Source: Pseudonocardia sp. T1-2H (GTDB taxonomy: Bacteria > Actinomycetota > Actinomycetes > Mycobacteriales > Pseudonocardiaceae). From it: a stretch of 64,000 nucleotides of DNA. The translations under genes and the position numbers were made by a program. The stretch is taken from the NCBI RefSeq assembly GCF_038039215.1, contig NZ_JBBPCL010000001.1, positions 3,720,001-3,784,000 of the forward strand, in the 5' to 3' direction. A model generated the notes under the pieces. That model was not told the DNA's origin. It did no database searches and saw only the letters and a program-made list of their open reading frames with translations. Positions 48,601-63,985 of the stretch are shown piece after piece. Each line of letters starts with the position of its first letter. Positions within the stretch are counted from its first letter, which is position 1.

Positions 48601-50016
48601 TCACGACACGAGGCCCCCGATGACCAGCGGCAGCACCGCCCCACCCCCGATCCCGAGCAGCACCGACACCGCGGCGGCGAGCACCGCGACCACGGTCGCC
48701 CGCCGGGCGACCGGCTGCTCGGCGCCGTCCCCGGCCCCCGCCCGGAAGGCGGGCGCGATCCAGCGCAGGTAGTAGAAGACGCTGGCCACCGTGTTCACGA
48801 TCGCGACGACGGCCAGCCAGGCCATCCCGCCGTCGACGGCGGCGGTGAACAGGGTCAGCTTGCCGAGGAACACCGCGGTCGGCGGCGTCCCGATCAGCCC
48901 GAGCAGGCACACCACCAGTGCTCCGGCCGGCGCGGGGGCCCGCCTCGCGAGGCCCCGCATGTCGTCCAGGGTGCGGGCCCGGGGCAGGGCGGCGACCACG
49001 GCGAAGGCGCCGAGGTTCGTCACCGCGTAGCCGGCGAGGTAGAACAGCAGGCCCGGGAGCGCCTCCGGTGCGCGACCCGCCACCGCGACGGCCATGAGCA
49101 GGTAGCCGACCTGCGAGATCGTCGAGTACGCGAGCAGCCGCTGGACGGAGGTCTGGAAGAACGCGGCCAGGTTGCCCAGGCTCATCGACGCCGCGGCCAG
49201 CACCGCGAGCAGCACGGGCCAGGCGACGACGTCGGCGGGCACGGCCACGTCCAGGAGCCGGTAGGCGCCGACGAGGGCACCGACCTTCGGGATCGTGGTG
49301 ACGACGGCGGCGACCGGCGCGGGGGTGCCGTCGGTGACGTCGGGGACCCAGAACTGGGCCGGCACCGCTCCCGCCTTGAAGGCCAGTCCGGCGAGCACGG
49401 CGACCAGCCCGACCGCCGCGAGCGCGGCCGGCGCGGTGGCCAGCCCCTCGCGCAGGGCCGGGTAGGCGGTCGCCCGGCCCGCCCCGTAGACCAGGGCGAC
49501 ACCGGTGACCATCGCGACCCCGGAGAACGCGCCGGACAGGTAGTACTTCATCGCCGCCTCGGTCGCGCGCGCGTCGCCGGCCCAGCCCACGACCGCGTAG
49601 AACGGCACGCCGGCCAGCAGGAACGCGGCGAAGAGCAGCAGCAGGTCGTTCGCTCCGGCCATGACGACCGCCCCGAGGCCACCGAGCTGGACGAGCACGG
49701 CGAACTCGGTCTCCCGGCGGTGCCCGGCGACCGCGTCCGCCGAGAGCCACAGCGCGAGCAGTACCGACACCAGAACGATCGCGCGAGCGGCCGTGGTCGC
49801 CGTGTCGACGGCATAGGCGCCGCCGAACACCGTCTCGCCCTGCCGGGCGGACGCCGTGGCGACCAGCCCGCCCACGGCGGTCGCCGTCGCGAGCCACCGG
49901 ACCAGGCCCTGGCGCCTGCGCGGTGACCAGGACCCGAGCAGCAGGCCGGCGACCGCGCCGCCGAGCAGGAAGAGCTCCGGGAGCAGCGCCAGCGGGTTCT
50001 CGTTCATGCCGGTCAT
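48601..50016 (-). CDS. nuoN: NADH-quinone oxidoreductase subunit N-like, antiporter-type
   Basis: A 471-residue membrane subunit with 13-14 helices of the Mrp/complex-I antiporter family. Key segments: EFAVLVQLGGLGAVVMAGANDLL (Glu), FKAGAVPAQFWVPDVTDGTP with the channel Lys, SVQRLLAYSTISQVGYL, and IGTPPTAVFLGKL. ATG 50016 overlaps the nuoM stop (ATGA). It pumps protons in complex I; here it is the last nuo gene of the operon. Confidence 0.92.
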   Translation of the reverse strand: MTGMNENPLALLPELFLLGGAVAGLLLGSWSPRRRQGLVRWLATATAVGGLVATASARQGETVFGGAYAVDTATTAARAIVLVSVLLALWLSADAVAGHRRETEFAVLVQLGGLGAVVMAGANDLLLLFAAFLLAGVPFYAVVGWAGDARATEAAMKYYLSGAFSGVAMVTGVALVYGAGRATAYPALREGLATAPAALAAVGLVAVLAGLAFKAGAVPAQFWVPDVTDGTPAPVAAVVTTIPKVGALVGAYRLLDVAVPADVVAWPVLLAVLAAASMSLGNLAAFFQTSVQRLLAYSTISQVGYLLMAVAVAGRAPEALPGLLFYLAGYAVTNLGAFAVVAALPRARTLDDMRGLARRAPAPAGALVVCLLGLIGTPPTAVFLGKLTLFTAAVDGGMAWLAVVAIVNTVASVFYYLRWIAPAFRAGAGDGAEQPVARRATVVAVLAAAVSVLLGIGGGAVLPLVIGGLVS

Positions 50017-51518
50017 CGCGCCACCAGCTCCACGAGCCCCCGCGCGGCGGGCTCGATCACGTCGAGCAGGACGCGCGGCAGGACCCCGATCACCAGCGCG
50101 AGCGCGAGCAGCGGTGCGACCGCCAGCGCCTCGCTCGCCCGGACGTCCGGGAGAGGACGCGGCGCGCCGGGGGCGTCGGGCGTCCGCAGCGGACCGAGGA
50201 ACAGCCGCTGCAGCGCCAGCAGGAACAGCGCCGCGGTGACGAGGATGCCGGTGACGGCCAGGGCGGTCGGGACCGGGGCCGCCCCGAGCGCCCCGGTGAA
50301 GACCTGGAACTCCGCGATGAACCCGGAGAACCCGGGCAGCCCGAGCGAGGCGAACGCGGCGACCGCGAACAGTGCGGCGAACCGCGGGGTGCGCGCGGCC
50401 AGGCCCGAGTACGCCCGCATGTCGTAGGTCCCGCCGCGCTCGTGCAGCACCCCGGCCAGCAGGAACAGCGCACCGGTGATCAGGCCGTGCGACACCATCT
50501 GCGTGACGGCGCCCGTCGTGGCGAGGGCGCGGGCCTGCACGTCGCCCCCGGCCACCAGACCGGCCGCGCCCACGCCGAGCACCACGTAGCCCATGTGGTT
50601 GATCGAGGTGTAGGCGATCATGCGTTTGACGTCGGTCTGGGCCAGGGCGACGAGCGCGCCGTACACCACGGAGACGACCCCGACGATCACGACCACCAGT
50701 GCGTACTGCCGCCAGCTCGCCGGCAGCAGCGGCATCGCGATCCGCACGAAACCGTAGGCGCCCATCTTCAGCAGGACCCCGGCGAGGATCGCCGAACCGG
50801 TCGCCGGCGCCTCGGTGTGCGCGGGCGGCAGCCAGGTGTGGAACGGCACCGTCGGGGTCTTCACCGCGAGGCCGACGCCGAGCGCCAGCAGGGTCAGCCC
50901 CGCGTACAGGCCTCCGCCCGCCAGCGGATTCGCGGCGGTCAGGGCCGGGATGTCGAAGGTGTGCGGTACGGCGGCGAGGAACAGCGCGATGATGCCGAGC
51001 AGCAGCGCGAGCGAGCCGAGGAACGTGTAGAGGAAGAACTTCAGCGCCGCGGCCCGGGCCCGTTCGCCGTGCCCCCACCCGGCGATCACGAAGTACATCA
51101 GCACGATCGACAGGTCGAAGAAGAGGAAGAACAGGATGAGGTCGAGCGCCGCGAACAGCCCCGTGCTCACCGTCTGCAGGGCCAGGAACAGCACCACGTA
51201 GGGCTTGACCCGGCGGGTCTCTCTCAGCGCGAACACGGCGCAGGCGAGGAACAGCACGGCGGTGAGCGCGAGCAGCGGCAGGGACAGCCCGTCGACGCCG
51301 AGGTGGTAGGAGATCCCCGCGCTCGGGATCCAGGGCAGCCGCTCCTCGAACCCGTAACCCTGCGGGGGCAGCCGCAGCCACACCGCGACGACCAGGGCGA
51401 GGTCGAGCATCCCGGCCGCGATCCACGCGCCCACGAACAGCCGCGCCGGGAGCCGGGCCGGCAGGCACAGCAGCACCGCGCCCACCAGGGCGGGCCAGAA
51501 GACGATCAAGGACAGCAC
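50013..51518 (-). CDS. nuoM: NADH-quinone oxidoreductase subunit M-like, antiporter-type
   Basis: A 501-residue polytopic protein: SYHLGVDGLSLPLLALTAVL, VLMYFVIAGWGHGERARAAL-type region, VKTPTVPFHTWLPPAHTEAP (channel Lys and His), and TDVKRMIAYTSINHMGYVVL. It starts 7 bp after the nuoL stop. GTG start. Complete and normal in length. Confidence 0.92.
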   Translation of the reverse strand: MLSLIVFWPALVGAVLLCLPARLPARLFVGAWIAAGMLDLALVVAVWLRLPPQGYGFEERLPWIPSAGISYHLGVDGLSLPLLALTAVLFLACAVFALRETRRVKPYVVLFLALQTVSTGLFAALDLILFFLFFDLSIVLMYFVIAGWGHGERARAAALKFFLYTFLGSLALLLGIIALFLAAVPHTFDIPALTAANPLAGGGLYAGLTLLALGVGLAVKTPTVPFHTWLPPAHTEAPATGSAILAGVLLKMGAYGFVRIAMPLLPASWRQYALVVVIVGVVSVVYGALVALAQTDVKRMIAYTSINHMGYVVLGVGAAGLVAGGDVQARALATTGAVTQMVSHGLITGALFLLAGVLHERGGTYDMRAYSGLAARTPRFAALFAVAAFASLGLPGFSGFIAEFQVFTGALGAAPVPTALAVTGILVTAALFLLALQRLFLGPLRTPDAPGAPRPLPDVRASEALAVAPLLALALVIGVLPRVLLDVIEPAARGLVELVAR

Positions 51519-51525
51519 AGGGCGG

Positions 51526-53379
51526 TCACCTCACCACGATCACGAACAGGGCCAGCGCGGCCAGGGCGGCGACGCCGATCGAGAGCTGGGCGAGGTACTG
51601 GTGCAGTTGGCCGGTCTGGGGTCGGCGCGCCCACCGGCCCAGGGTCCGGGCACCGGCCGCGACCGCACCGACGGCGCCGTCGACGGCGGGCTCGCCGCGC
51701 CGGTCCAGCAGTCCCGCGAGCCGGACGACGGCGCGCGCGGAGCCGTCGACGGCCCGGTCGAGCACGTCGGCGTCGAAGCGGGCGAGGGCCGACGCCAGGG
51801 CCACGGTGGGCCGGGCGACCAGCGTCCGGGCGAGACTCTCGAGGCCGAGCCAGCTCGCGAGGAGCCCGGATCCCCGACCGGCGCGGGCCGGCCCGGAAGG
51901 TTCCCGCCCGGCCCCCCGGCGCCGGGACAGCACCGCCCACGTCGCGGCCGCGGCGACGACGGCGAGCACCGCCGAGGCGGCGAGCTCGACGGCGCCGGGT
52001 CCCGGTCCGCCGAGCAGCGCACCGACCCCGGTCAGCGCCGCGGGTACGGCGAGCAGCACGAGGGGCGCGGCCATGAGCCCGGCGACCCGGCCCGCGGGCT
52101 CCTGCTCGTGCACCGGCTCGCCCGGCTCCGCGGGCTGCCACACGAACCACAACGCCTTCACGCTGTACACCGCCGCCACGACCGCGCCGGCCAGCCCCAC
52201 GACGTACAACGCCGCCGAGCGCTCCAGCACCGCGGCGAGCACGGCGTCCTTCCCGACCCACAGCGACAGCGGCGGGATTCCCGCCAGCGACAGGGCGCCG
52301 GTCGTGAACGTCGCCCCGACCAGCGGGAACCGGCGGGCCGCGCCCCGCAGCCCGTCGAGCTGCCTGGTACCCAGGGCGACCAGCCACGCCCCGGCCGCGA
52401 GGAACAGCAGGCTCTTCGTGGCCGCGTGGGCGACGAGTTGCAGTGCACCCTGCGGGACCCCGCCGACGCCGGCAGCGAGCACCGTGTACCCGATCTGCGC
52501 GCAGGTCGACGCGGCCAGCAGCTGCTTCAGGTCGGACTGCGCGACGGCGACGAGCCCGAGCAGCACCGCCGTCGCGGCCCCGACCCAGGCGACCAGCGGG
52601 CCGGCCCACCCGGTCACGTCGAGCAGCGGCGCGACCCGCAGCAGCAGGTAGGCCCCGGCGGCGACCATCGTCGCGGAGTGCAGCAGCGCGGAGACCGGGC
52701 TCGGCCCCCGCATCGCGCCGGAGAGCCAGAAGCTGAACGGCAGCTGCGCGGACTTGCCCAGCGCCGCCACGACGACCCCGGCGGCGGCCACGTGCAGCCA
52801 CGCTCCCCTGAGGGCCGGAAGCCCGGCCAGGGCCAGGGTGCTCACGCCGCCCGCCAGCGCCGCGCCCGCCGCCAGGTAGAGGCCCAGGTCTGCGGCCCGC
52901 GTCGTGAGGAAGGCGGTCCGGGCCGCGCCGACGGCCGCGAGGTCGCGGTGGTGATACGCAATCAGCGCCCAGCTCGTGGCGCCCATGACCTCCCAGGCCA
53001 TGAGCAGCGGCGCGAGGGTGGTCGCGGTGACCGTCACCAGCATCGCCCCGGCGAAGACCAGGATCGTTCCGACGAACCGCGGGCGCCGCAGCTCCGCCTC
53101 CCCCGCCGCGAACACCAGCACCGCGAGCAGCACCACTGCCACCGTCACGACGAGCACCGACGACAGCCCGTCGACCGCCAGGCCCGCCGGGATCCCGGCC
53201 AGCAGCGGGGCGCTCGCGGCCGGCCGCAGGACGGCGGCCGCGACGGCGAGGCCCAGCACGCCGGAACCGAGGAGGACGCCGGCGGGCGCGGCGAACCGGC
53301 CGGACCACGCCCCGAACCCGGCGAGCACCAGCAGCGCCCCGCCCACGAGTGGGACCCCGATGAGCCACCACAGCAGCAC
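51526..53379 (-). CDS. nuoL: NADH-quinone oxidoreductase subunit L-like, antiporter-type
   Basis: A 617-residue subunit L: VDGLSSVLVVTVAVVLLAVLVF, LLMAWEVMGATSWALIAYHH, GKSAQLPFSFWLSGAMRGPSPVSALLHSATMV, and QSDLKQLLAASTCAQIGYTVL. The C-terminal lateral helix is shorter and Arg-rich. Note SFWLSGAMRGPSPVS where canonical NuoL has HTWLPDAMEGPTPVS: the His and the Glu differ. GTG start, 3 bp after nuoK stop. The change resembles antiporter-type proteins in the second actinobacterial nuo cluster. Confidence 0.9.
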   Translation of the reverse strand: MLLWWLIGVPLVGGALLVLAGFGAWSGRFAAPAGVLLGSGVLGLAVAAAVLRPAASAPLLAGIPAGLAVDGLSSVLVVTVAVVLLAVLVFAAGEAELRRPRFVGTILVFAGAMLVTVTATTLAPLLMAWEVMGATSWALIAYHHRDLAAVGAARTAFLTTRAADLGLYLAAGAALAGGVSTLALAGLPALRGAWLHVAAAGVVVAALGKSAQLPFSFWLSGAMRGPSPVSALLHSATMVAAGAYLLLRVAPLLDVTGWAGPLVAWVGAATAVLLGLVAVAQSDLKQLLAASTCAQIGYTVLAAGVGGVPQGALQLVAHAATKSLLFLAAGAWLVALGTRQLDGLRGAARRFPLVGATFTTGALSLAGIPPLSLWVGKDAVLAAVLERSAALYVVGLAGAVVAAVYSVKALWFVWQPAEPGEPVHEQEPAGRVAGLMAAPLVLLAVPAALTGVGALLGGPGPGAVELAASAVLAVVAAAATWAVLSRRRGAGREPSGPARAGRGSGLLASWLGLESLARTLVARPTVALASALARFDADVLDRAVDGSARAVVRLAGLLDRRGEPAVDGAVGAVAAGARTLGRWARRPQTGQLHQYLAQLSIGVAALAALALFVIVVR

Positions 53380-53382
53380 GGG

Positions 53383-53688
53383 TCAGCCCTTCAGGTCCGC
53401 GGCGGCGTCGGTCGTGTCGACCTGGCGGGCGCGGTAGATCGCGGTGGCGACGGCGAAGCCGACGGCCATCTCGATCGCCATCGCGGTGACCACGACGACG
53501 ATCAGCACGGGGCCGTCGGTCCCGTCCGGAGCGACGAAGAACCAGAGGGCGGCCGCCGCGAGGACGACACCGTTGAGCATCAGCTCCAGCCCCATCATCA
53601 GCATCACGATCGACTGCTGGGACAGCGCGCCGTAGAGGCCGATCGCGAACAGGCCGGCCGCGGCGAGCAGGAACAGCTGCAGCGTCAT
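53383..53688 (-). CDS. nuoK: NADH-quinone oxidoreductase subunit K-like
   Basis: A 101-residue three-helix subunit: LFAIGLYGALSQQSIVMLMMGLELMLNGVVL, with the conserved membrane Glu in GLELMLN, and TAMAIEMAVGFAVATAIYR with the second Glu. ATG 53688 overlaps the nuoJ stop. Confidence 0.93.
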   Translation of the reverse strand: MTLQLFLLAAAGLFAIGLYGALSQQSIVMLMMGLELMLNGVVLAAAALWFFVAPDGTDGPVLIVVVVTAMAIEMAVGFAVATAIYRARQVDTTDAAADLKG

Positions 53689-54239
53689 CCCGGCCCACCT
53701 CCGCCGGGGTCGTCGGCGCGGCGGCGGTCGAGATCGTCGCCGAACCGGTCGTACCGGCCCCGCGCCGTGGCCAGCACGACGGTGCCGACGATCGTGGCGA
53801 ACAAGGTGACCCCGAGGGTCATCATCGTGAGCATCTGCCTGCCCATGAGTGCCTCGCCGAGCGCGAAGGTCTGGTCCGGCGCGGGTGAGCCGCGGCGGGT
53901 GGGCCAGTCCGTCAGCAGGACGCCCGCGGCCAGCACGCCGAAGGTGCCGACCGCGATCGCCATCGACCCGGACTTGTTGTGGTACATGGTCATCGGCATC
54001 AGTCCGGCCGGGTTCATCATGTACATGACCATGAACACGGCCATGATCACCATCTCGATGACCATCATCAGGACGATCACCACGCCCAGGTAGCCCAGGC
54101 CCAGGAGCAGCACCAGCCCGGCGACGGCGAGGAAGGACACGAGCAACGCGAAGGTCACCTGCGCCATCGAGTTCAGCCGGAACACGGCGAACCCCGCGAC
54201 CACGGCGCCGACCGCCAGGATCCAGAAGAGCACGGTCAT
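53685..54239 (-). CDS. nuoJ: NADH-quinone oxidoreductase subunit J-like
   Basis: A 184-residue five-helix subunit: VLFWILAVGAVVAGFAVFRLN, SMAQVTFALLVSFLAVAGLVLLL, and a Met-rich third helix (VLMMVIEMVIMAVFMVMYMM) in place of the usual LHAEFLAAVQVLVYAGAVMVL; the rest is divergent. ATG overlaps the nuoH stop. The unusual methionine density is worth noting beside the copper genes. Confidence 0.85.
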   Translation of the reverse strand: MTVLFWILAVGAVVAGFAVFRLNSMAQVTFALLVSFLAVAGLVLLLGLGYLGVVIVLMMVIEMVIMAVFMVMYMMNPAGLMPMTMYHNKSGSMAIAVGTFGVLAAGVLLTDWPTRRGSPAPDQTFALGEALMGRQMLTMMTLGVTLFATIVGTVVLATARGRYDRFGDDLDRRRADDPGGGGPG

Positions 54240-55185
54240 CCGGCACCTCCCCCGTTCAGGACGAGCAGCGCGACGGCGAGCGCCTGCACGATCGTCAGTG
54301 GCACCAGGACGATCCACGCGAACTCGGTGAACCGATCGGCGCGGATCGTCGGGAACCGCCTGCGCACGAGCAGGACGAGCGCCAGGAGGACCGCCGTCTT
54401 CACCGCCACCCACAGCCAGGCGGGCAGCCACGGACCGGCACCGCCGCCGAGGAACAGCGGCACCGCCAGGGCCACCGCGACCACCAGCAGCAGCCACCGG
54501 CCACCGGCGAACACCAGCCGGTCGACACCGGACAGTTCGGCGGCCGCGCCGCCCGCCACGTCGCGGCCGACCGGGGCATCGAACGGACCCAGAAGGCCAT
54601 CGCCGTGGCGGAGATCAGGTACACGACGAAGGCCACCGGCATGATCACCACGAACCAGAGACCCCGCTGGGCGGCGACGATGTCGGTCAGCCGCAGGCTC
54701 TCCGCGCCGAGAGCCGCGGTGATGATCGCGAACATGTGCGGGAGCTCGTAGGCGAGGCCCTGGGCGACGAACCGGTAGCCGCCGACCAGCCCGAGCGCGC
54801 TGTTCGGGCCCCAGCCGACCATCCAGACGGCCGCCCAGGCCAGCACCTCCATGGCGTTGAACCAGACGACGCCGACGGACAGGTCGGTCACCGGTCGGGT
54901 CCCGAGCGGCAGCACCACCCCGGCCAGGACCGCGGCGACGGGCAGGACCGCGCCGCCTGCCCGCCACAGCACGGAGTCCGCGGCGACGGTCCGCCGCCGC
55001 TGCCCGAGGAGCAGCCGCCCCGCCTCCCGTACCGGCAGGAGGGCGTCGGCCCGGGCGCCACGGGCCCGGGCCGTGAGTCCCGCGTCGGCCGCGACCAGGG
55101 CCGCGGCCACCGCGACGAGCAGGAACGGCAGGAGGACGACCCACCAGAGCGGCAGCGCGGCCGGCGCGGGCATCGGCTCAGGCAT
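54236..55185 (-). pseudogene. nuoH: NADH-quinone oxidoreductase subunit H-like, one frameshift as sequenced
   Basis: The first part (55185 to ~54595) reads LPLWWVVLLPFLLVAVAAAL, SVGVVWFNAMEVLAWAAVWMVGWGPN, VAQGLAYELPHMFAIITAAL, family NuoH. At 54588-54590 the minus-strand TTCTGGGTCC needs one more G to give FWGPFDAPVGRDVAGGAAAE and continue to the stop at 54236 (TEFAWIVLVPLTIVQALAVA). Restored length ~316 residues. It starts inside the end of the NuoB/D-like gene. Every other gene in the operon is intact, so a homopolymer error is likely. Confidence 0.85.
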
Positions 55186-56266
55186 GCCGTGCCCCCCGTT
55201 CGGCGGCCACGAGGTCGGTGTCCGGGTCCACGACGGCGACGACGAGGCGCGCGGCCGCGAACTCGGCCCCGACGACCGCGCGGGCCAGCGCGGCGAGGTC
55301 GGGCGGCCGCGGCGGGCCGGGTTGCGGCGACGGGATCCCGTCGACCGCGGCGTCGAGGGCGGCGAGCCGGTCGGCCAGCCGGGCCGCGACGTCACGCTCG
55401 CCCGCCGGGATCCCGCGGACGAGCCACCGCAGCGTCCGCGACCGGCGGACCCGGTCGGTGAGCGCGTGCACCTGTCCGCGCACCGCGGCCGGTTCGGCGC
55501 CGGCGAGCAGTTCGTCCCGGAGCCTGCGGGCCCGCGCCGCCGGATCGGCCCAGCCGGCGACGCCGAGGAACCGCGCGAGGGCGTCGAGATGTCCGCCGGC
55601 GAGGTGCCGCGGGTCCTCGTCCCGCCAGAACGATCGCCCGCTTCCGGGGGCGAGGACCTCCGCCTCGGCCTCCTGGATCACGTCGCCCTGGAGCGCGACG
55701 CGCAGGACGAGCCCCGCCGGCCAGTCCGGCAGGACCGGCCCGAGGGCGACGTGCAGGCGGTCGAGCATCAGCCCGTCGCGGTCCTCGCCGAGGTCGGCCA
55801 TGCGGAGGCCCCCGGGCATCTCCATGTCCCCGTGCTCGTGTCCCCCGTGGTCCGGCCCGCCGTGCTCGTGCCCCCCGGAGTTCCCGGGCGCGCTCGCGCC
55901 TTCGTCGTGGGCTTCGGTGCACTCCTCGGGCGGGTGGCCGACGGGCCCGCCGGGAGCCCGGTCGGCGAGCCGGGAGGCCGCCGCGTCGAGCGTCCCGGAC
56001 ACGTGAGCAACGGCTTCGACGACCACCCGCACCCGCGGCTCGGGCATCTGCGCCCAGACCCGGTCGACGACCGCTGCCATCGCCGGAGCGGGCGGCCCCG
56101 CCACGACGAGCACGTCGGCGTCCGCCGGGGAGACCGCGGCGGCCCAACCCCGTCGGCCGAGCTCGGCCTCCACCGCCAGCCGAGCCTCGGTGGCGCCGGG
56201 CAGCGCGACCAGCAGGACGTGGGGCCGGGCGGACGCGAGGCGGAGGAGCAGCCGTCTCAGGTCCAT
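55178..56266 (-). CDS. NuoB/NuoD-like fused protein with His-rich linker, lacking cluster ligands
   Basis: A 362-residue soluble protein between nuoA and nuoH, the place of nuoBCD. Residues ~1-95 resemble a NuoB fold (RRGWAAAVSPADADVLVVAG, MAAVVDRVWAQMPEPRVRVV), but the Cys ligands of cluster N2 are absent; the only Cys is C116. Residues ~118-150 are His/Met-rich (HEHGGPDHGGHEHGDMEM). Residues ~165-250 resemble the N-terminus of NuoD (LHVALGPVLPDWPAGLVLRV, LQGDVIQEAEAEVL). Overlaps nuoA by 10 bp and nuoH by 8 bp. It may cap the membrane arm without electron transfer, or bind metal. Function is inferred. Confidence 0.6.
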   Translation of the reverse strand: MDLRRLLLRLASARPHVLLVALPGATEARLAVEAELGRRGWAAAVSPADADVLVVAGPPAPAMAAVVDRVWAQMPEPRVRVVVEAVAHVSGTLDAAASRLADRAPGGPVGHPPEECTEAHDEGASAPGNSGGHEHGGPDHGGHEHGDMEMPGGLRMADLGEDRDGLMLDRLHVALGPVLPDWPAGLVLRVALQGDVIQEAEAEVLAPGSGRSFWRDEDPRHLAGGHLDALARFLGVAGWADPAARARRLRDELLAGAEPAAVRGQVHALTDRVRRSRTLRWLVRGIPAGERDVAARLADRLAALDAAVDGIPSPQPGPPRPPDLAALARAVVGAEFAAARLVVAVVDPDTDLVAAERGARHA

Positions 56267-56607
56267 CGCAGCGCGCCCTCCCGCCAGGCGTAGACGACGC
56301 CGGCCAGCAGGATCCCGAGGAACAGGAACATCTCGACCACCGCCGAGGGCCCGATCCGCGACACGACCAGTGTCCACGGATACATGAAGATCATCTCCAT
56401 GTCGAAGGCCAGGAAGACCATCGTCACCGGGTACCACCGGACGTGGAACCGGGAGAACGCGTGCTCGGTCGGCGCGAGGCCGCCGCTGAAGGGCAGGACC
56501 TCCAGCGCGGTCCGCCGCACCGTCAGCAGGCGCGCCGCCCCGTAGAGCAGCAGGATGGCGGCGACGACGACGCCGAGCGCCACGAGCACGGGTACGAACT
56601 CGTCCAT
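56257..56607 (-). CDS. nuoA: NADH-quinone oxidoreductase subunit A-like
   Basis: A 116-residue three-helix subunit: LVALGVVVAAILLLYGAARL, LPFSGGLAPTEHAFSRFHVRWYPVTMVFLAFDMEMIFMYPW (the FDxE helix). The usual Cys-Gly loop (YECG) is LPFSGG, without Cys. AAGAGG precedes ATG 56607. First gene of the operon; a CsoR-like palindrome lies 33 bp upstream. Confidence 0.92.
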   Translation of the reverse strand: MDEFVPVLVALGVVVAAILLLYGAARLLTVRRTALEVLPFSGGLAPTEHAFSRFHVRWYPVTMVFLAFDMEMIFMYPWTLVVSRIGPSAVVEMFLFLGILLAGVVYAWREGALRWT

Positions 56608-56640
56608 CCGCACGCCTCTTCCACTTCGGCGGCACCACAA

Positions 56641-56651
56641 CCCCCTGGGGG
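56641..56651. promoter_or_regulatory. CsoR-like palindrome upstream of nuoA
   Basis: CCCCCTGGGGG, flanked by AA and TAT, is a G/C-tract palindrome of the kind bound by CsoR-family copper repressors (TACCCC-GGGGTA type). It sits 33-43 bp before the nuoA start and 130 bp from the CsoR gene. If used, it would put the nuo-like operon under copper control. Confidence 0.5.
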
Positions 56652-56769
56652 TATCGTGCCCCGTCCTCGCACCCGTTGTCCATGCGGATGGGCAGAACCC
56701 CAGCTCATCAGGTGAGAGCGGGACGCGATCTCCCGCTTCGACCGCCGCCTGATCTGCGAACCGGTTGCG

Positions 56770-56789
56770 TACGGTACCCCCCTACCGTA
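56770..56789. promoter_or_regulatory. CsoR operator candidate upstream of csoR
   Basis: A perfect 7-bp inverted repeat TACGGTA / TACCGTA around CCCCCC, 34 bp before csoR. The AT-flanked C-tract matches CsoR operators; autoregulation of csoR-copA is expected. Confidence 0.7.
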
Positions 56790-56823: not shown

Positions 56824-57105
56824 ATGAACGGATACACGGAGGACAAGGCCGCGTACCTGCGGCGGATGCGCCGCATCGAGGGGCAGGTCCGCGGGATCAC
56901 CCGGATGATCGAGGACGACAAGTACTGCATCGACGTCCTCACCCAGATCTCCGCGGTGAACAAGGCCCTCGAGGCGGTCGCCCTGGGCCTGCTCGACGAG
57001 CACCTCAAGCACTGCGTGACCGAGGCGGTCGCCGAGGGCGGCGACGTCGCAGACCGGAAGGTCGCCGAGGCGAGCGCCGCGATCGCCCGCCTCGTCAGGT
57101 CCTGA
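56824..57105 (+). CDS. csoR: CsoR-family copper-sensing repressor
   Basis: A 93-residue four-helix DNA-binding repressor. The Cu(I) ligands Cys35, His60 and Cys64 are present (YCIDVLTQI and DEHLKHCV), with the N-terminal RRIEGQVRGI signature. Copper binding releases the operator. GGAGGAG lies 5 nt before the ATG. Divergent from nuoA and upstream of copA. The Cys-His-Cys set fits copper rather than nickel or formaldehyde sensors. Confidence 0.92.
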   Translation: MNGYTEDKAAYLRRMRRIEGQVRGITRMIEDDKYCIDVLTQISAVNKALEAVALGLLDEHLKHCVTEAVAEGGDVADRKVAEASAAIARLVRS

Positions 57106-57149
57106 TCCCGGGGCGCGGCCCCGTCGGATCGCCACCCCCCGGCCCAGCC

Positions 57150-57322
57150 GGCGAGGGCCCCGGATCCGCTTCGTCGCCGAGGTGCCCTCGACCAGTGGGT
57201 ACCGGCTGTTCCTGGACTTCCGGCACGGCGGCGCCGTCCACACCGCCGAGTTCACCGTCCCCACCCGCCCCGGCGGCACCGAGGCCGCGGACGGCCACAC
57301 CCACGAGGGAGGCGCGCGATGA
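57150..57322 (+). pseudogene. C-terminal remnant of a secreted/metal-associated protein before copA
   Basis: The frame reads [20 protein letters not shown], then [17 protein letters not shown] and HTHEGGAR, ending in a TGA that overlaps the copA ATG (ATGA). This is the end of a small beta-rich protein often next to copper ATPase genes; its N-terminus is gone. Translational coupling to copA is kept in sequence but cannot work without a start. Confidence 0.55.
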
Positions 57323-59610
57323 CCACCACGTCGCAGACCCGCGCGAAGGATCTGGTTCGCGAGGTCGAGCTGTCCATCGGCGGCATGACCTGCGCGTCCT
57401 GCGCCAACCGGGTCGAGCGGAAGCTCAACAAGCTCGACGGTGTCGTCGCGACCGTCAACTACGCCACCGAGCAGGCCAGGGTCGACGCCCCCGCCGGGAT
57501 CGACCCCGCGGACCTCGTCGCCGCCGTCGAGGCCGCCGGCTACACCGCCCGGCTCCCCCGCCCGGCCGATGAGAACGGCCCGGACGACACGGGTGACCGA
57601 GAAGCCGGGCCGGACGACCCGCTGCGCACCCGGCTGATCGTCTCCGCGGTCCTGTCGGTGCCGGTGATCGCGATGGCGATGGCGCCCGCACTGCAGTTCA
57701 CCTACTGGCAGTGGGTCTCGCTGGTCCTCGCCGCACCGGTGGTCGTCTGGGGCGCCCTGCCCTTCCATCGCGCGGCGTGGACGAACCTGCGGCACGGCGC
57801 GGCGACCATGGACACCCTCGTTTCGATGGGGACCCTGGCGGCGTTCGCGTGGTCGCTCTACGCCCTGCTGCTCGGCGCGGCCGGCGTCCCGGGCATGACG
57901 CACCCCTTCGAGCTGACCGTCGCCCGGAGCGACGGAGCCGGGAACATCTACCTCGAGGTCGCCGCCGGCGTCACCACGTTCATCCTGGCCGGACGGTGGT
58001 TCGAGGTTCGGTCGAAGCGCCGGGCCGGCGCCGCGCTGCGGGCGCTGTTGGAAGCTGGGGCGAAGGACGTGGCGGTCCTGCGGACCCGGGACGGCGTGGA
58101 CCACGAGGAACGGGTCCCCGTCGACCGGCTGGCCGTGGGCGACCGGTTCGTCGTCCGCCCCGGCGAGAAGATCGCCACCGACGGCGTCGTGGTCGACGGC
58201 AGCTCCGCGGTCGACGCCTCGATGCTCACCGGGGAGTCCGTCCCGGTCGAGGTGGGTGCCGGCGACACCGTCGTCGGCGGCACGGTCGACGTCGGCGGCC
58301 GGCTCACGGTACGGGCCACCCGCGTCGGCTCGGACACCCAGCTCGCCCGGATGGCGACGCTGGTCGAGGACGCGCAGACCGGGAAGGCGCAGGTCCAGCG
58401 TCTCGCCGACCGGATCTCGGGGATCTTCGTCCCGATCGTCATCGCGCTCGCGCTGCTCACGCTCGGCTTCTGGCTCGGCACCGGGGCCGGCGCCGCGGCG
58501 GCCTTCACCGCCGCCGTGGCCGTGCTCATCGTCGCGTGCCCCTGCGCGCTCGGGCTGGCCACGCCCACCGCGCTGCTGGTCGGCACGGGGCGCGGTGCCC
58601 AGATGGGCGTGCTGATCAAGGGCCCGGAGGTGCTCGAGTCCACCCGCCGCGTCGACACCGTCGTCCTGGACAAGACCGGCACCGTGACCACCGGCCGGAT
58701 GACGCTCCAGGAGGTCGTCACCGCCGACGGGGTCGACCGGGCCGAGACCCTGCGCCTCACCGGGGCGGTGGAGGCGGCGTCGGAGCACCCGATCGCCGCG
58801 GCTATCGCGAGCGGGGCCGTCGACGAGGTGGGCCGGCTGCCCGAGGTGGGTGACTTCAGGAACCTCGAGGGGCTCGGGGTCCAGGGCGTGGTCGACGGGC
58901 ACGCCGTGCTGGTCGGGCGGCCCTCCCTGCTCGACCGGGGGAGCCAGGGCCTGCCCGCCGACCTCGCCGAGGCCGCCCGCGTCGCGACGGAGCAGGGCCG
59001 CACCGCGGTCGCCGTCGCCTGGGACGGCGAGGCGAAGGCCGTCCTCACGGTCGCCGACGCCGTGAAGGAGACCTCGGCCGAGGCGATCGCCCAGCTGCGC
59101 GGACTCGGGCTGACCCCCGTCCTGCTCACCGGGGACAACCGGGCCGTCGCCGAGCGCGTCGCCCGGGAGGTCGGGATCGACGTCGGGCCGGCCACGGTCA
59201 TCGCGGACGTCCTGCCCGCCGACAAGCTCGGCGTCGTCGAGGACCTGCAACGGCGCGGGAGGGTCGTGGCCATGATCGGCGACGGCGTCAACGACGCCGC
59301 CGCCCTGGCCCGGGCGGACCTCGGCATGGCGATGGGCACGGGGACCGACGTCGCCATCGAGGCCGCCGACATCACGCTCGTCCGGGGAGACCTGCGCGCC
59401 GCGGCCGACGCCCTCCGGCTCGCGCGCCGCACCCTGCGCACCGTCAAGGGCAACCTGTTCTGGGCCTTCGCGTACAACGTCGCCGCGCTGCCGCTCGCCG
59501 CCGCGGGCCTGCTGAACCCCATGCTCGCCGGGGCGGCGATGGCGTTCAGCTCGGTGTTCGTGGTGGGCAACAGCCTGCGGCTACGTCGCTTCCGGAGCCG
59601 GGCCTCGTGA
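57319..59610 (+). CDS. copA: Copper-translocating P1B-type ATPase
   Basis: A 763-residue Cu(I) exporter. One N-terminal heavy-metal domain ([16 protein letters not shown]), then membrane helices, the actuator loop TGES, the ion-binding CPC ([12 protein letters not shown]), the phosphorylation site DKTGTVTTG, the nucleotide-binding HP motif (SEHPIAAAI), [10 protein letters not shown], and the C-terminal metal-site segments [10 protein letters not shown] and [15 protein letters not shown] (P1B-1 type, hence copper). ATG with GGGAGG upstream. It follows csoR and should be derepressed by copper. Confidence 0.95.
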
Positions 59611-59712: not shown

Positions 59713-60594
59713 TCAGCTCGGATCGGCCGCGCGGCGGCGTTCGAGGAAGACGGTGTCGCGCCAAACCCCGCGGTGGCGTCCGATGCGTTCGCGGACACCG
59801 AGGGTGCGGTAGCCGGCGGACTGGTGCAGCGCGATCGATGCCCGGTTCTCGGGGAAGATCGCGGTCTGCAGGGTCCAGAGCCCGCCCTCGTCCGCGGCGG
59901 TGACCTGCTTGTGCAGCAACGCCTTGCCGACGCCCCTGCCGCGGTGCCCCTCGCCGACGTAGACCGAGGTCTCGGCGACGCCCGCGTAGACCGGGCGGGC
60001 GGACGTCGCGGTGAGGGCCGTCCACCCGGCCACATCGCCGTCGACCTCGGCGACCCAGCGGTGGCCGGGCAGCCACCTGCGGTCGAGCTCGCCGCGGTCC
60101 GGGACCTCGGTCTCGAAGGTCGCGTCGCCGGTGGCGATGCCCTCGGCGTAGATCCGCCGCACCGCCGGCCAGTCCTCTGGCGCGAGGGCGCGGACGGTGA
60201 CGTCGGCGGGTACGTCCGCAGGGCAGCAGGGGCGTGGGCCGAGCATGCCCATGACGGCGTCGGCCGCGTGGGGCAGCCCCGTGCAACAGGCCGGGTTGAC
60301 GGACACAAGCGTGGCGGTCCCCTCCCTCCGCAGCGTCACGAAGCCGACGTCGGCCAGTTTCCGCAGGTGGTGCGAGCAGGTGGACTGGCTGATCCCGAGC
60401 TCTGCGGTCAGCTCGCCCACGGTCGTCGCGCGCCCGGCGACGGCGACCGCGTGCAGGAGCCGGACGCGGGTGGGCTCGGCGAGGCAGGCGAACCACTCGG
60501 CGTAGGTCGCGGCGTCCCCCGGGCCCAGCTGGGCCGGTGGCGGGGCGGACACGTCGGTCAGCGGGATCGGGCGGACGGACGGGCTCGCGCTCAT
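59713..60594 (-). CDS. ArsR-GNAT fusion: arsenic-type repressor with ArsN1-like acetyltransferase
   Basis: A 293-residue two-domain protein. Residues ~28-105 form an ArsR winged helix (WFACLAEPTRVRLLHAV, ELGISQSTCSHHLRKL). Two vicinal Cys pairs follow, C103-C104 and C123-C124, possible As(III) ligands. Residues ~131-290 are a GNAT domain of the phosphinothricin/arsinothricin N-acetyltransferase type (ALAPEDWPAVRRIYAEGI, SVYVGEGHRGRGVGKALL, NRASIALHQSAGYRTLG). ArsN1 enzymes acetylate arsinothricin. The fusion may couple sensing and detoxification. Divergent from the flavoprotein-arsR-acr3 operon, sharing the operators at 60631-60677. ATG 60594. Confidence 0.82.
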   Translation of the reverse strand: MSASPSVRPIPLTDVSAPPPAQLGPGDAATYAEWFACLAEPTRVRLLHAVAVAGRATTVGELTAELGISQSTCSHHLRKLADVGFVTLRREGTATLVSVNPACCTGLPHAADAVMGMLGPRPCCPADVPADVTVRALAPEDWPAVRRIYAEGIATGDATFETEVPDRGELDRRWLPGHRWVAEVDGDVAGWTALTATSARPVYAGVAETSVYVGEGHRGRGVGKALLHKQVTAADEGGLWTLQTAIFPENRASIALHQSAGYRTLGVRERIGRHRGVWRDTVFLERRRAADPS

Positions 60595-60630
60595 GCGGCC
60601 GAGTATCGACCCGGGCCGATGATTGCGTCA

Positions 60631-60677
60631 ATCGATCGACGTCGATACAGTCCGCGCAAGAATCGATCTGCATCGAT
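60631..60677. promoter_or_regulatory. Two 16-bp ArsR-type operators
   Basis: ATCGATCGACGTCGAT (60631-60646) and ATCGATCTGCATCGAT (60662-60677) are two copies of the dyad ATCGATCKRCRTCGAT. They lie between the divergent ArsR-GNAT gene and the flavoprotein gene. A related TGCATCGATGAGCG occurs at 62068, before arsR. Confidence 0.7.
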
Positions 60678-60700
60678 GGAAACTGGTCGTGGAGGTTCTG

Positions 60701-62077
60701 ATGGGGACGAGTGGACTTCCGGTCGTGGTCGTCGGTGCCGGGCCCGTGGGCCTGGCGGCGGCGGCGCACCTCACCGGACGGGGACTGGACGCGCTGGTCC
60801 TCGAGGCCGGGGCGCGGGCCGGCGCGCACGTGCGGGAGTGGCACGCCGTGCGGTTGTTCTCCCGGTGGGCCGAGGTGGTCGATCCGGCGGCGGAGAAGCT
60901 GCTCGCCCTGACCGGCTGGCGACACCCCGACCCGGACTCCTACCCGACCGGGCAGGAGTGGGCCGAGCGCTACCTGCAGCCCCTCGCCGACGCGCTGGAC
61001 GGACGGGTTCGCTACGGCGCCCGGGTGGTCGGCGTCGCCCGACAGGGCCGGGACCGCGTCGTCGACGCCGGGCGGGACACCGAGCCCCTGACGGTGCACG
61101 TCGAGACGGCGACGGGCGAGGAGCGGATCGCCGCCCGCGCCGTGGTCGACGCCTCCGGGACCTGGGCCTCGCCCAACCCGCTCGGCGCGGACGGGCTGCC
61201 CGCGATCGGGGAGAAGGCCGCGCGGGACCGCATCGCCTATCGGGTGCCCGATCTGGCCGAACCCGCCACGCGTGCCCGCTACGCCGGGAAGCGTGTCGCC
61301 GTCGCCGGGAGCGGCCACTCGGCCCTGACCGCGCTGGTCGCGTTCGCGGGCCTGGCCCGGGAGGCGCCCGGGACGCACGTGGACTGGCTGGTGCGGCGCG
61401 GCCGGGTGGGCGACACGTTCGGGGGCGGCGACGCCGACCAGCTCCCGGCCCGCGGGGCACTCGGCACGCGGGCCGCAGCCGCCGTCGAGGCCGGACGCAT
61501 CAGCACGGTGACCGGCTTCCGCACGGCCGTCGTCGAGCCCGTCGGGGAACGGCTCGCGCTCGAGTCCCTGGACGGGCGCCGGCTCCGGCCCGTCGACGAG
61601 GTGGTCGTGCTGACCGGGTTCCGCCCGGACCTGTCCTGGCTCTCGGAGGTGCGCCTGGACCTGGATCCGACGTTGCAGGCCGCTCGCGAGCTCGCGCCGC
61701 TGATCGACCCGAACGTCCACTCGTGCGGCACTGCTCACCCGCACGGCGCGCGCGAGCTGGCGCAGCCGGAGCCGGGGGTGTTCCTGGTCGGGATGAAGAG
61801 CTACGGCCGGGCACCGACCTTCCTGGCGATGACCGGCTACGAGCAGGTCCGCTCGGTCGCCGCCGCGATCGACGGCGACCAGGAGGCCGCGGAGCGGGTC
61901 GAGCTGGTGCTGCCCGAGACCGGCGTGTGCGGCGGTGCGGGAGTGTTCGACGACCCGGACCCGTCTGCCGAGGGCGGATGCTGCGGAGCCCCGGCCGAGC
62001 CGGTCGGGATCTCGCTCGGGAGCCGGCCGGCGGGACACCGACACCCGCGGGGCCCGCTTGCGCCCCTGCATCGATGA
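60701..62077 (+). CDS. FAD/NAD(P)-binding monooxygenase-like protein of the ars operon
   Basis: A 458-residue flavoprotein. Rossmann FAD motif VVVVGAGPVGLAAAAHLTG at the N-terminus, LFSRWAEVVDPAAEKLL, a second dinucleotide motif KRVAVAGSGHSALTALV near residue 200, and TGFRPDLSWLSEV late. The family is the flavin monooxygenase group found in actinobacterial ars clusters (ArsO-like). The C-terminal tail has CGGAG and GGCCGAP, a vicinal Cys pair that may bind As(III). ATG 60701 has GGAGG. First gene of the operon with arsR and acr3-arsC. Confidence 0.78.
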   Translation: MGTSGLPVVVVGAGPVGLAAAAHLTGRGLDALVLEAGARAGAHVREWHAVRLFSRWAEVVDPAAEKLLALTGWRHPDPDSYPTGQEWAERYLQPLADALDGRVRYGARVVGVARQGRDRVVDAGRDTEPLTVHVETATGEERIAARAVVDASGTWASPNPLGADGLPAIGEKAARDRIAYRVPDLAEPATRARYAGKRVAVAGSGHSALTALVAFAGLAREAPGTHVDWLVRRGRVGDTFGGGDADQLPARGALGTRAAAAVEAGRISTVTGFRTAVVEPVGERLALESLDGRRLRPVDEVVVLTGFRPDLSWLSEVRLDLDPTLQAARELAPLIDPNVHSCGTAHPHGARELAQPEPGVFLVGMKSYGRAPTFLAMTGYEQVRSVAAAIDGDQEAAERVELVLPETGVCGGAGVFDDPDPSAEGGCCGAPAEPVGISLGSRPAGHRHPRGPLAPLHR

Positions 62078-62093
62078 GCGTCAACATAGACGT

Positions 62094-62477
62094 GTGTCGA
62101 TTCCGCTGCCGCTGCTGATCTCCTCCGCGGCGACCCATCAGGCCCTCAGCGCCGACGAGGCCGTCGAGCTGGCGGCGGCGTTCAAGGCTCTCGGCGACCC
62201 GGTCCGGCTGCGCCTGCTCTCGCTGATCGCCGCCCACGAAGGCGGCGAGGCGTGCGTGTGCGACCTGACCGGCGCGTTCGAACTGTCCCAGCCCACGATC
62301 TCGCACCACCTCAAGGTGCTGCGCGACGCCGGCCTGGTCCGCAGCGAGCGACGGGCGACCTGGGTCTACTACCGGGTCCGGCCCGAGGTCATCGGCCTGC
62401 TCGCCACCGTGCTGGTCCCCGGCGACGCGCCGCTCCGCAGCACCTGCCCACCCGACGGAAGTGACCTGCCCGCATGA
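62094..62477 (+). CDS. arsR: ArsR-family arsenite-responsive repressor
   Basis: A 127-residue winged-helix repressor: AAAFKALGDPVRLRLLSLIA, the metal site ACVCDLTGAF (Cys54, Cys56), recognition helix QPTISHHLKVLRDAGLV, wing SERRATWVYYRV. The GTG at 62094 lacks a clear ribosome site; a TAGACG box 8 nt upstream suggests a leaderless start or coupling to the gene before. The stop overlaps acr3-arsC by 4 bp. Confidence 0.9.
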   Translation: MSIPLPLLISSAATHQALSADEAVELAAAFKALGDPVRLRLLSLIAAHEGGEACVCDLTGAFELSQPTISHHLKVLRDAGLVRSERRATWVYYRVRPEVIGLLATVLVPGDAPLRSTCPPDGSDLPA

Positions 62478-63985
62478 GTGCCCTCCCCACGACCGACGCC
62501 GACGCCCCGGTCGCGAAGCGCCTGTCCACCCTCGATCGCTTCCTGCCGGTCTGGATCATCGCCGCGATGGTCGTCGGGCTGCTCGCCGGGCGGCTGATCC
62601 CCGGCCTCGGCGGCGCGCTCGACGCCATCGCAGTCGACGGAGTGTCGCTCCCGATCGCGCTCGGCCTGCTGATCATGATGTACCCGGTGCTGGCGAAGGT
62701 CCGCTACGACCGCCTCGGCACCGTCACCGGCGACCGCCGCCTGCTGATCAGCTCACTCGTCCTGAACTGGGTCTTCGGCCCGCTGCTCATGTTCGCCCTG
62801 GCCTGGCTGCTGCTGCCGGCCCTGCCCGAGTACCGCACCGGGCTGATCATCGTCGGTCTCGCCCGCTGCATCGCCATGGTCGTCATCTGGAACGACCTCG
62901 CCTGCGGCGACCGCGAGGCCGCCGCCGTGCTCGTCGCGATCAACTCGGTGTTCCAGGTGATCGCGTTCGCCGCCCTGGGCTGGTTCTACCTGTCCGTGCT
63001 GCCCGGCCGGCTCGGGCTCCCGCAGGCCGACCTCGACGTGTCTCCTTGGCAGATCGCCGGGTCCGTACTGATCTTCCTGGGTGTCCCGCTCGTCGCCGGC
63101 TACCTCACCCGACACTTCGGGGAGAAGGCCAAGGGCCGCGCCTGGTACGAGGAGAAGCTCATCCCGCGCGTCGGGCCGTTCGCCCTCTACGGACTGCTGT
63201 TCACGATCGTCGTCCTGTTCGCGCTGCAGGGCGACGCCATCACCTCCCGGCCCCTGGACGTCGCCCGCATCGCCCTCCCGCTGCTGGCCTACTTCGCGAT
63301 CATGTGGTTCGGCTCGCTCGCCCTGGCCAAGGCGATCGGCCTGGGCTACGAGCGGTCCGCGACGCTGGCGTTCACCGCCGCGGGCAACAACTTCGAGCTC
63401 GCCATCGCCGTCGCGATCGCCACCTTCGGCGTCACCTCCGGGCAGGCCCTCGCCGGGGTCGTCGGCCCGCTGATCGAGGTCCCGGTCCTCGTCGCGCTGG
63501 TCTACGTCTCCCTCGCCGCCCGGCGCCGCTGGACGTCGAGCCCGGGCCGGCCCGATCTCGAGGAGCTTCTCGTGAAGAACATCCCCGAGGTGCTGTTCGT
63601 CTGTGTGCACAACGCCGGACGCTCCCAGATGGCCGCCGCTCTGCTCCACCACCACGCCCGGGGTTCGGTCGCCGTCCGCTCCGCCGGCTCCGCACCCGCC
63701 GACACCGTCAACCCCGCCGTCCGCGAGGTCATGGCCGAGATCGGGCTCGACCTGTCCCAGGAGTTCCCCAAGCCGCTGACCGAAGATGCCGTCCGCGCGG
63801 CCGACGTCGTGATCACCATGGGCTGCGGCGACGCCTGCCCCGTCTACCCCGGCAAGCGCTACCTCGACTGGGAGCTCACCGACCCCGCCGGCAGGACCGC
63901 CGCCGAGATCCGGCCCATCCGTGACGACATCGAGACCCGCGTGAAGGCGCTCATCGCCGAGCTGACCGGGCCCGCGAACGGGTGA
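62474..63985 (+). CDS. Acr3 arsenite permease fused to ArsC arsenate reductase
   Basis: A 503-residue fusion. Residues ~20-355 are an Acr3 exporter with ten helices and the conserved GLARCIAMVVIWNDLACGD (arsenite-thiol Cys) and FTAAGNNFELAIAVAI. Residues ~368-500 are a LMW-phosphatase-type arsenate reductase: P-loop Cys377-x5-Arg383 (VCVHNAGRS) and resolving Cys451 and Cys455 in TMGCGDACP. Arsenate is thus reduced and the arsenite exported by one chain, as in the M. tuberculosis ArsC fusion. Stop at 63985; the last 15 bases of the window hold no more genes. Confidence 0.94.
   Translation: MSALPTTDADAPVAKRLSTLDRFLPVWIIAAMVVGLLAGRLIPGLGGALDAIAVDGVSLPIALGLLIMMYPVLAKVRYDRLGTVTGDRRLLISSLVLNWVFGPLLMFALAWLLLPALPEYRTGLIIVGLARCIAMVVIWNDLACGDREAAAVLVAINSVFQVIAFAALGWFYLSVLPGRLGLPQADLDVSPWQIAGSVLIFLGVPLVAGYLTRHFGEKAKGRAWYEEKLIPRVGPFALYGLLFTIVVLFALQGDAITSRPLDVARIALPLLAYFAIMWFGSLALAKAIGLGYERSATLAFTAAGNNFELAIAVAIATFGVTSGQALAGVVGPLIEVPVLVALVYVSLAARRRWTSSPGRPDLEELLVKNIPEVLFVCVHNAGRSQMAAALLHHHARGSVAVRSAGSAPADTVNPAVREVMAEIGLDLSQEFPKPLTEDAVRAADVVITMGCGDACPVYPGKRYLDWELTDPAGRTAAEIRPIRDDIETRVKALIAELTGPANG

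Follow-up and report, generated by a model that had tools for sequence, protein, structure and literature searches.

A complex I-like operon beside csoR and copA in Pseudonocardia sp. T1-2H: predicted CsoR-type copper control and a possible role in Cu(I) transport

A nuo-like operon of Pseudonocardia sp. T1-2H appears to be linked to copper, and this link is well supported by sequence comparison. Copper-responsive control of the operon by a repressor of the CsoR type is very probable. The operon lies in the window, the 64,000-nucleotide stretch of DNA that was analysed, next to csoR and copA. Taken as a whole, the data are best explained by a pair of CsoR operators and a copper-induced Cu(I) transporter derived from complex I, which most likely works in the direction of export, and we regard this combined explanation as somewhat more probable than improbable. 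Its individual steps, namely repression, copper binding, transport and the direction of transport, are ones that we infer from sequence. A sequence-only reading of the window had proposed that copper stress and this complex are connected; dyad enrichment, csoR adjacency, runs of copA into nuoA and four plasmid copies close to copper or heavy-metal genes all support this proposal.

A stretch of 216 bp separates the divergent genes nuoA (ATG at 56607, minus strand) and csoR (ATG at 56824, plus strand). The 11-mer CCCCCTGGGGG (56641-56651), which has no other exact copy in the window, is separated by 33 bp from the nuoA ATG, as the sequence-only reading had noted. It is contained in AACCCCCTGGGGGTA (56639-56653, minus strand), the whole nuoA-side site, located 31 bp upstream of nuoA. 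This predicted CsoR-type operator has the structure AAC-CCCCTGGGG-GTA, or TAC-CCCCAGGGG-GTT when read on the nuoA strand. The second dyad proposed before csoR was also recovered: TACCCCCCTACCGTA (56775-56789, plus strand) is a predicted operator of the form TAC-CCCCCTACC-GTA, 34 bp upstream of the csoR ATG. In the published work on S. lividans CsoR, the type-2 consensus is ATATACCCCTNAGGGGTATAT, binding requires a TAC-N9-GTA dyad and swapping the TAC/GTA motif abolishes binding (PMC3902906). The dyad of this operator surrounds a G-tract pseudopalindrome. In the window, the csoR-side site is an exact TAC-N9-GTA, whereas the nuoA-side site (TAC-N9-GTT) is one base off. The targets named in the passages on this operator are csoR and two copZA operons, with no nuo-like operon among them (PMC3902906).

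Taken as a bare GC palindrome, the 11-mer does not stand out: the window contains 34 matches with up to two mismatches, compared to 77 in shuffled sequences. Palindrome counting was rejected as evidence, because it is uninformative alone, and the published dyad was used instead. With up to one mismatch, TACCCC-N3-GGGGTA occurs at 8 sites in the 7-Mb genome; with up to two, it becomes common, giving 157 matches versus 96 for the reversed control. The CsoR-type box claimed at nuoA thus held as a rare operator-like site (8 per genome), but it departs from the published dyad by GTT in place of GTA. Two of the 8 sites fall within 1.5 kb of the only other csoR in the genome, which adjoins a gene for a CopZ-like HMA protein. 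A copA-like label given to a gene beside this second csoR was dropped, as Pfam identified an acetyl-CoA synthetase-like protein. One further site stands in front of the gene for an ArsP-type permease; a DUF305 gene comes next, and a multicopper oxidase is encoded on the opposite strand. This arrangement of box, permease and DUF305 gene (L160, 5976-10093; genome C1, about 1851975-1856093) looks like a further part of a CsoR regulon. A looser genome pattern, TACCC-N5-GGGTW, was set aside, as it picked up a repeated element as well. The 15-mer TACCCCACACGGGTT is found at four places in genome C1 (295063, 1275171, 2102018 and 3648575) and, among the matches listed, TACCCCGGGAGGGGA lies 124 bp from it at three of the four; these sites probably represent a repeated element.

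The dyad was also searched for upstream of nuoA in related operons. We collected 114 upstream regions (250 bp each, one shorter) and removed 19 near copies, including L070 and L072 (near copies of L052), which left 95 loci. TAC-N9-GTA was present in 32 of these, window included (44 sites), while the other spacings from 3 to 21 were found in 0 to 11 loci each and the reversed motif GTA-N9-TAC in 2. The density of the motif reached 1.86 per kb upstream of nuoA versus 0.067 per kb elsewhere in the same loci, a 28-fold difference. In three Actinomycetospora loci (L083, L088 and L095), exact dyads lie 30, 24 and 40 bp before nuoA, a place matching that of the window box. No TAC-N9-GTA was detected in a 19-kb stretch of the ordinary complex I cluster that the genome carries separately. 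The exact dyad is absent within 250 bp of nuoA in 63 of the 95 loci, indicating that control is not universal or does not always act through the exact motif. Neither a box nor a copper gene was found within 6 kb in 27 of the 95 (more than 6 kb upstream was covered in 79). Conservation of the box beside orthologous operons, a check suggested in the sequence-only reading, is partial: the dyad is enriched across genera with spacing 9 singled out, but about two thirds of the loci (63 of 95) lack its exact form.

These counts bear on the simplest alternative, in which the association is due to chance: the box would serve csoR alone, and the nuo-like operon would merely be adjacent. The exact dyad of the window is indeed on the csoR side, and of the 10 loci in which csoR is the adjacent divergent gene, 8 have boxes for which csoR on its own could account. 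More generally, in 12 of the 32 boxed loci the box may belong to a copper-type gene transcribed divergently at a distance of up to 600 bp (csoR, DUF305, a beta-propeller protein or copZ, the latter for instance in L084, L086 and L098). However, none of the 11 copper-type query genes is divergent within 600 bp in the other 20 boxed loci, 17 of which have at least 850 bp of upstream sequence, so that the promoter of csoR itself does not explain the boxes there. The spacing control, the density contrast and the plasmid contexts described below also argue against a bystander role, which we consider very improbable.

The gene csoR (56824-57105, plus strand) encodes a 93-residue RicR-like copper-sensing repressor that matches Pfam PF02583 with 106 bits. 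Residues C35, H60 and C64 are present in the sequence and form what we take to be the Cys-His-Cys copper ligand pattern of the CsoR family. The domain and this pattern together place the protein among the CsoR/RicR family repressors. The closest NCBIfam model is RicR (NF052430), a CsoR-family copper repressor of mycobacterial origin. The match of 166 bits is under the curated cut-off of 175, and the window gene differs from RicR also in lying beside copA and a nuo-like operon. copA itself (57319-59610, plus strand) encodes a copper/heavy-metal P-type ATPase with an N-terminal HMA domain, as indicated by Pfam and NCBIfam matches. The gap between csoR and copA (57106-57318) holds a remnant. It matches the C-terminal portion of a secreted protein that is longer in L082 and other loci and in which no Pfam domain was found. 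Positions 59713-63985, which adjoin the copper genes, contain an arsenic-type cluster: an ArsR-acetyltransferase fusion and a further ArsR-type gene accompany a flavoprotein gene and a gene for a transporter of the SBF type, ACR3-like as read, whose chain also includes a domain of the low-molecular-weight phosphatase/arsenate reductase type.

The adjacency of csoR to the operon recurs in relatives. It was assayed around the gene for a NuoB-NuoD-like fusion, the second gene of the operon, in 40 retrieved regions (window included, a fragment in G028 excluded), against a background of 91 CsoR-family genes in 36 genomes (239 Mb). A CsoR gene lies within 6 kb of the fusion gene in 13 of the 40 loci versus 0.20 expected, and within 2.5 kb in 9 versus 0.084 expected; the associated P values assume independent loci and are too small, since the genomes are related. 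In four loci (L052, L056, L070 and L072, three of them near relatives), the stop of copA and the start of nuoA are -4 to 8 nt apart, and two exact dyads precede copA in each. In three others (L111, L136 and L151), copA ends 123-148 nt before nuoA. Among the 95 loci, the neighbouring gene clusters include DUF305 (27), CopA (26), CsoR (18), multicopper oxidase (8) and DUF326 copper-storage-like proteins (4); these counts come from ORF clusters, with wrong-strand artefacts ignored, and differ slightly from tblastn counts. A copper-type gene was found within 6 kb in 57 of the 95 loci, a figure that has no matched control and in which the CopZ query may also match the HMA domain of CopA.

The nature of these neighbours could suggest that the complex imports or loads copper, passing it to or from extracytoplasmic cuproproteins encoded nearby. 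DUF305 and multicopper oxidase genes, together with the sulfocyanin-like genes that also occur near the operon, fit such a role. But operators of the CsoR type are released by excess copper, which is the wrong sign for uptake, and copA abuts nuoA in four loci. Importing or loading is thus improbable in our opinion; CsoR-type control and the abutting copA point to copper removal instead.

Relatives of the operon occur in many actinobacteria. A search for the fusion gene in 150 genomes of the same family gave 51 matches, of which 37 scored above 40 bits (own genome included, one a fragment). The other 14 matches, presumably to ordinary NuoB, were weak, none exceeding 23 bits over some 55 residues. 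An alignment scan of GTDB genomes with NuoJ detected at least 288 relatives. The best 80 of these, which were kept, include Pseudonocardia, Actinomycetospora, Streptomyces, Amycolatopsis, Saccharothrix, Nonomuraea, Geodermatophilus, Nocardiopsis and Mycobacterium, among others. With a NuoJ profile, 62 of 396 genomes across the phylum were matched, 16 of them (own genome included) with at least 150 bits. More distant NuoJ relatives (104-132 bits) were observed in 18 genomes of one other family (f19).

NuoJ matches were also obtained on 15 of 72,556 plasmid records (E up to 1e-5, covering 32-47% of the query). The four plasmids inspected all carry A, H, J, K, L, M and N, with at least one hypothetical protein in the place of the fusion, and nuoE, F, G and I were not seen in these annotated copies. 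On the Pseudonocardia autotrophica plasmid, genes for a heavy-metal ATPase, an HMA protein and a metal regulator are divergent and DUF305 lies downstream. Genes upstream of the operon encode a multicopper oxidase and DUF305 on the Arthrobacter FB24 plasmid, a heavy-metal ATPase and an HMA protein on Mycobacterium avium pMAH135, and a copper multicopper oxidase and CopB on the plasmid of the gammaproteobacterium Halomonas KO116. TAC-N9-GTA occurs some 200-300 bp before nuoA on the P. autotrophica plasmid and on pMAH135; none was found in the Arthrobacter FB24 stretch or near nuoA in Halomonas KO116. By reading, Halomonas NuoJ and NuoA retain Met and His residues, with the Met motif present in NuoJ, so this set of residues is either old or was transferred together with the operon. 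The loci in which the operon is plasmid-borne with copper or heavy-metal genes, also outside Actinobacteria (Halomonas), are L082 (P. dioxanivorans pPSED01), L166, L167, L168 and L169.

The operon (48601-56607) contains the genes A, B-D, H, J, K, L, M and N, in this order, and no nuoE, F, G or I was seen within these coordinates. An ordinary complex I cluster is located elsewhere in the genome, from which A, B, D, G, H, I, J, K and L were read. The B-D gene (55178-56266, minus strand) encodes the NuoB-NuoD-like fusion, identified by profile and fold. Its predicted structure has a mean pLDDT of 85 and a pTM of 0.81. At a threshold of E 0.001, Foldseek gave no hit; the weaker hits listed are NuoB or NuoD chains or relatives of these, with a best E value of 0.0012, a probability of 1.00 and low TM-scores. 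When 33 fusions were combined into a profile, NuoB chains were matched weakly (best E 0.00036), Pfam gave a sub-threshold NuoB match (14.9 bits for a cut-off of 27), and no NCBIfam model scored above its cut-off. The NuoD part is short and was recognised by its fold only. None of the invariant or nearly invariant columns of the 33 fusions is a Cys and, in the first 100 residues of 94 fusions, 48 have no Cys while 46 have one to three. The two parts are joined by a His/Met-rich linker at about residues 105-161. This feature had been picked out in the sequence-only reading and was confirmed by counting, with 9 His and 4 Met in 87 residues in the window. Across 94 fusions, the median linker content is 10 His and 3 Met. 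At least five His and Met in total are present in 76, showing that a His/Met-rich linker is common, not universal; two of the 18 fusions with fewer than five have cut starts.

Homologues of A, H, J, K, L, M and N together with B- and D-like folds relate the predicted complex to respiratory complex I (NDH-1). It differs from the latter in that the fusion has no conserved Cys, and hence no conserved NuoB N2-cluster cysteines, and in that the electron-input subunits NuoE, F, G and I were not seen in the operon (48601-56607). Since neither Fe-S ligands nor subunits for electron input could be recognised, the reaction of complex I is unlikely to be carried out. Mrp antiporters are complex I relatives without redox centres, and the L- and M-like subunits of the operon are related to theirs. 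Yet the operon also has A, H, J and K and the B-D-like fusion, with conserved Met and His, and no Mrp-specific small subunit (B, E, F or G) was found among the best matches of its genes. By gene content, the predicted complex can be placed in the complex I superfamily, broadly defined, but it is not a respiratory complex I and, judging by the best matches of its genes, lacks the subunits that define Mrp antiporters.

The membrane subunits carry an unusual set of Met and His residues. In nuoJ (53685-54239, minus strand; PF00499), the Met array LMMxxEMxxMxxFMxMxMMNPAGLMPMxMxHN bears out the Met richness for which this subunit had been singled out: 13 Met are invariant in 33 sequences, along with E62 and H87, and the motif is present in 94 of 95 sequences. 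Its predicted structure is of middling quality (pLDDT 70) and resembles NuoJ chains of complex I. On a helical wheel, M59, M63, M66, M70 and M74 fall within 80 degrees. Met and His residues were compared with the complex I of the same genome for A, H (residues 1-199), J, K and L, the subunits for which a comparator was available. In NuoJ, most Met and H87 have no counterpart there; pairing of the two sequences is uncertain, while conservation within the family is certain. In NuoA (56257-56607, minus strand; PF00507), the family-conserved H49, H55, M70 and M75 have no counterpart in the ordinary subunit, and M93 has no aligned residue. The same comparison leaves without counterpart M112, M151 and M182 in NuoH (first 199 residues) and the conserved M29, M31, M70 and M74 in NuoK (53383-53688, minus strand; sequence matches). 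The nuoH gene (54236-55185, minus strand; PF00146, 82 bits for the first piece) shows a frame break near 54585 (54560-54620), beside a short G run, due to mutation or sequencing error. In NuoL, the conserved M132 has no counterpart and H593 no aligned residue. NuoM and NuoN have 11 and 2 conserved Met/His positions, respectively, as judged from family conservation alone, with no ordinary comparator, and could have gained Met or His too.

These ligand-rich sites could also be taken as redox centres, with copper replacing Fe-S clusters, for instance by oxidizing Cu(I) with quinone and coupling this to proton pumping. The complex I frame is in favour of this, as is the position of the sites in subunits that surround the former quinone/coupling region. 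But conserved Cys residues are lacking in the fusion, the NuoD part of which is short and was recognised by fold alone, and Met-rich sites in general favour Cu(I) over redox cycling. A redox role for copper thus has little likelihood.

The antiporter-like subunits NuoL (51526-53379), NuoM (50013-51518) and NuoN (48601-50016), all on the minus strand and identified by sequence matches, appear to have kept their proton half-channels. NuoL retains E130, K209, H234, K285, K322 and K377. NuoM retains K220, H227, H234, K251 and E403, and has D135 where solved NuoM has Glu. We take the residues listed to be proton-channel residues of complex I. Since the half-channels are kept, the likely source of power is the proton motive force. 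The same residues would serve a copper-induced, Mrp-like cation/proton antiporter, moving Na+, K+ and H+ to defend membrane energy, with Met and His reflecting copper tolerance or a tuning of assembly. In line with this, NuoL, M and N match Mrp subunits too, and the B-D part has no conserved Cys. This leaves unexplained, however, the recurrent Met and His in A, H, J and K and the common His/Met-rich linker on the cytosolic side, and we hold such an antiporter to be unlikely, if less so than a redox or importing role.

In complex I, NuoA, H, J and K are part of the region coupling the peripheral arm to the antiporters. Retained half-channels, Cu(I)-type ligands, the linker and CsoR control with copA together suggest a Cu(I) transporter driven by the proton motive force, most likely an exporter. 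From the operator sequences and the published behaviour of CsoR, apo-CsoR would repress both csoR-copA and the nuo-like operon through the operator pair, and Cu(I) would release CsoR and switch on both transcription units. The product would be a membrane complex that descends from complex I and in which no redox centres can be recognised. In this complex, the His/Met-rich linker of the cytosolic fusion may gather Cu(I), and the Met set of NuoA, H, J and K may conduct it. Inward proton flow through the half-channels of NuoL, M and N would power the transport step, with export as the most likely direction, in parallel to the ATP-driven CopA. The detailed version, an exporter powered by the proton motive force with a Met-lined path in NuoA/H/J/K, proton flow in NuoL/M/N, a CsoR-type switch and plasmid spread with copper resistance genes, is put forward tentatively, at a little short of an even chance. 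CusA-type transporters of the RND family are proton-driven Cu(I) exporters. A Met relay for Cu(I) combined with proton flow would be common to both, as a proposal only for the nuo-like complex, which is of unrelated fold. We found no report of a copper-linked nuo-like operon in a literature search with thin coverage of subscription journals and preprints.

Altogether, these results hint at an undescribed proton-powered copper-handling machine in many actinobacteria. If copper transport is confirmed, the complex would represent a new class of copper transporter, and genes now labelled NADH-quinone oxidoreductase in databases would have to be re-annotated. As a natural experiment, it would also bear on the debated question of how the antiporter subunits of complex I communicate with its coupling region. 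Finally, it would mean that the coupling machinery of complex I can drive transition-metal transport, beyond electron transfer or alkali-ion exchange.
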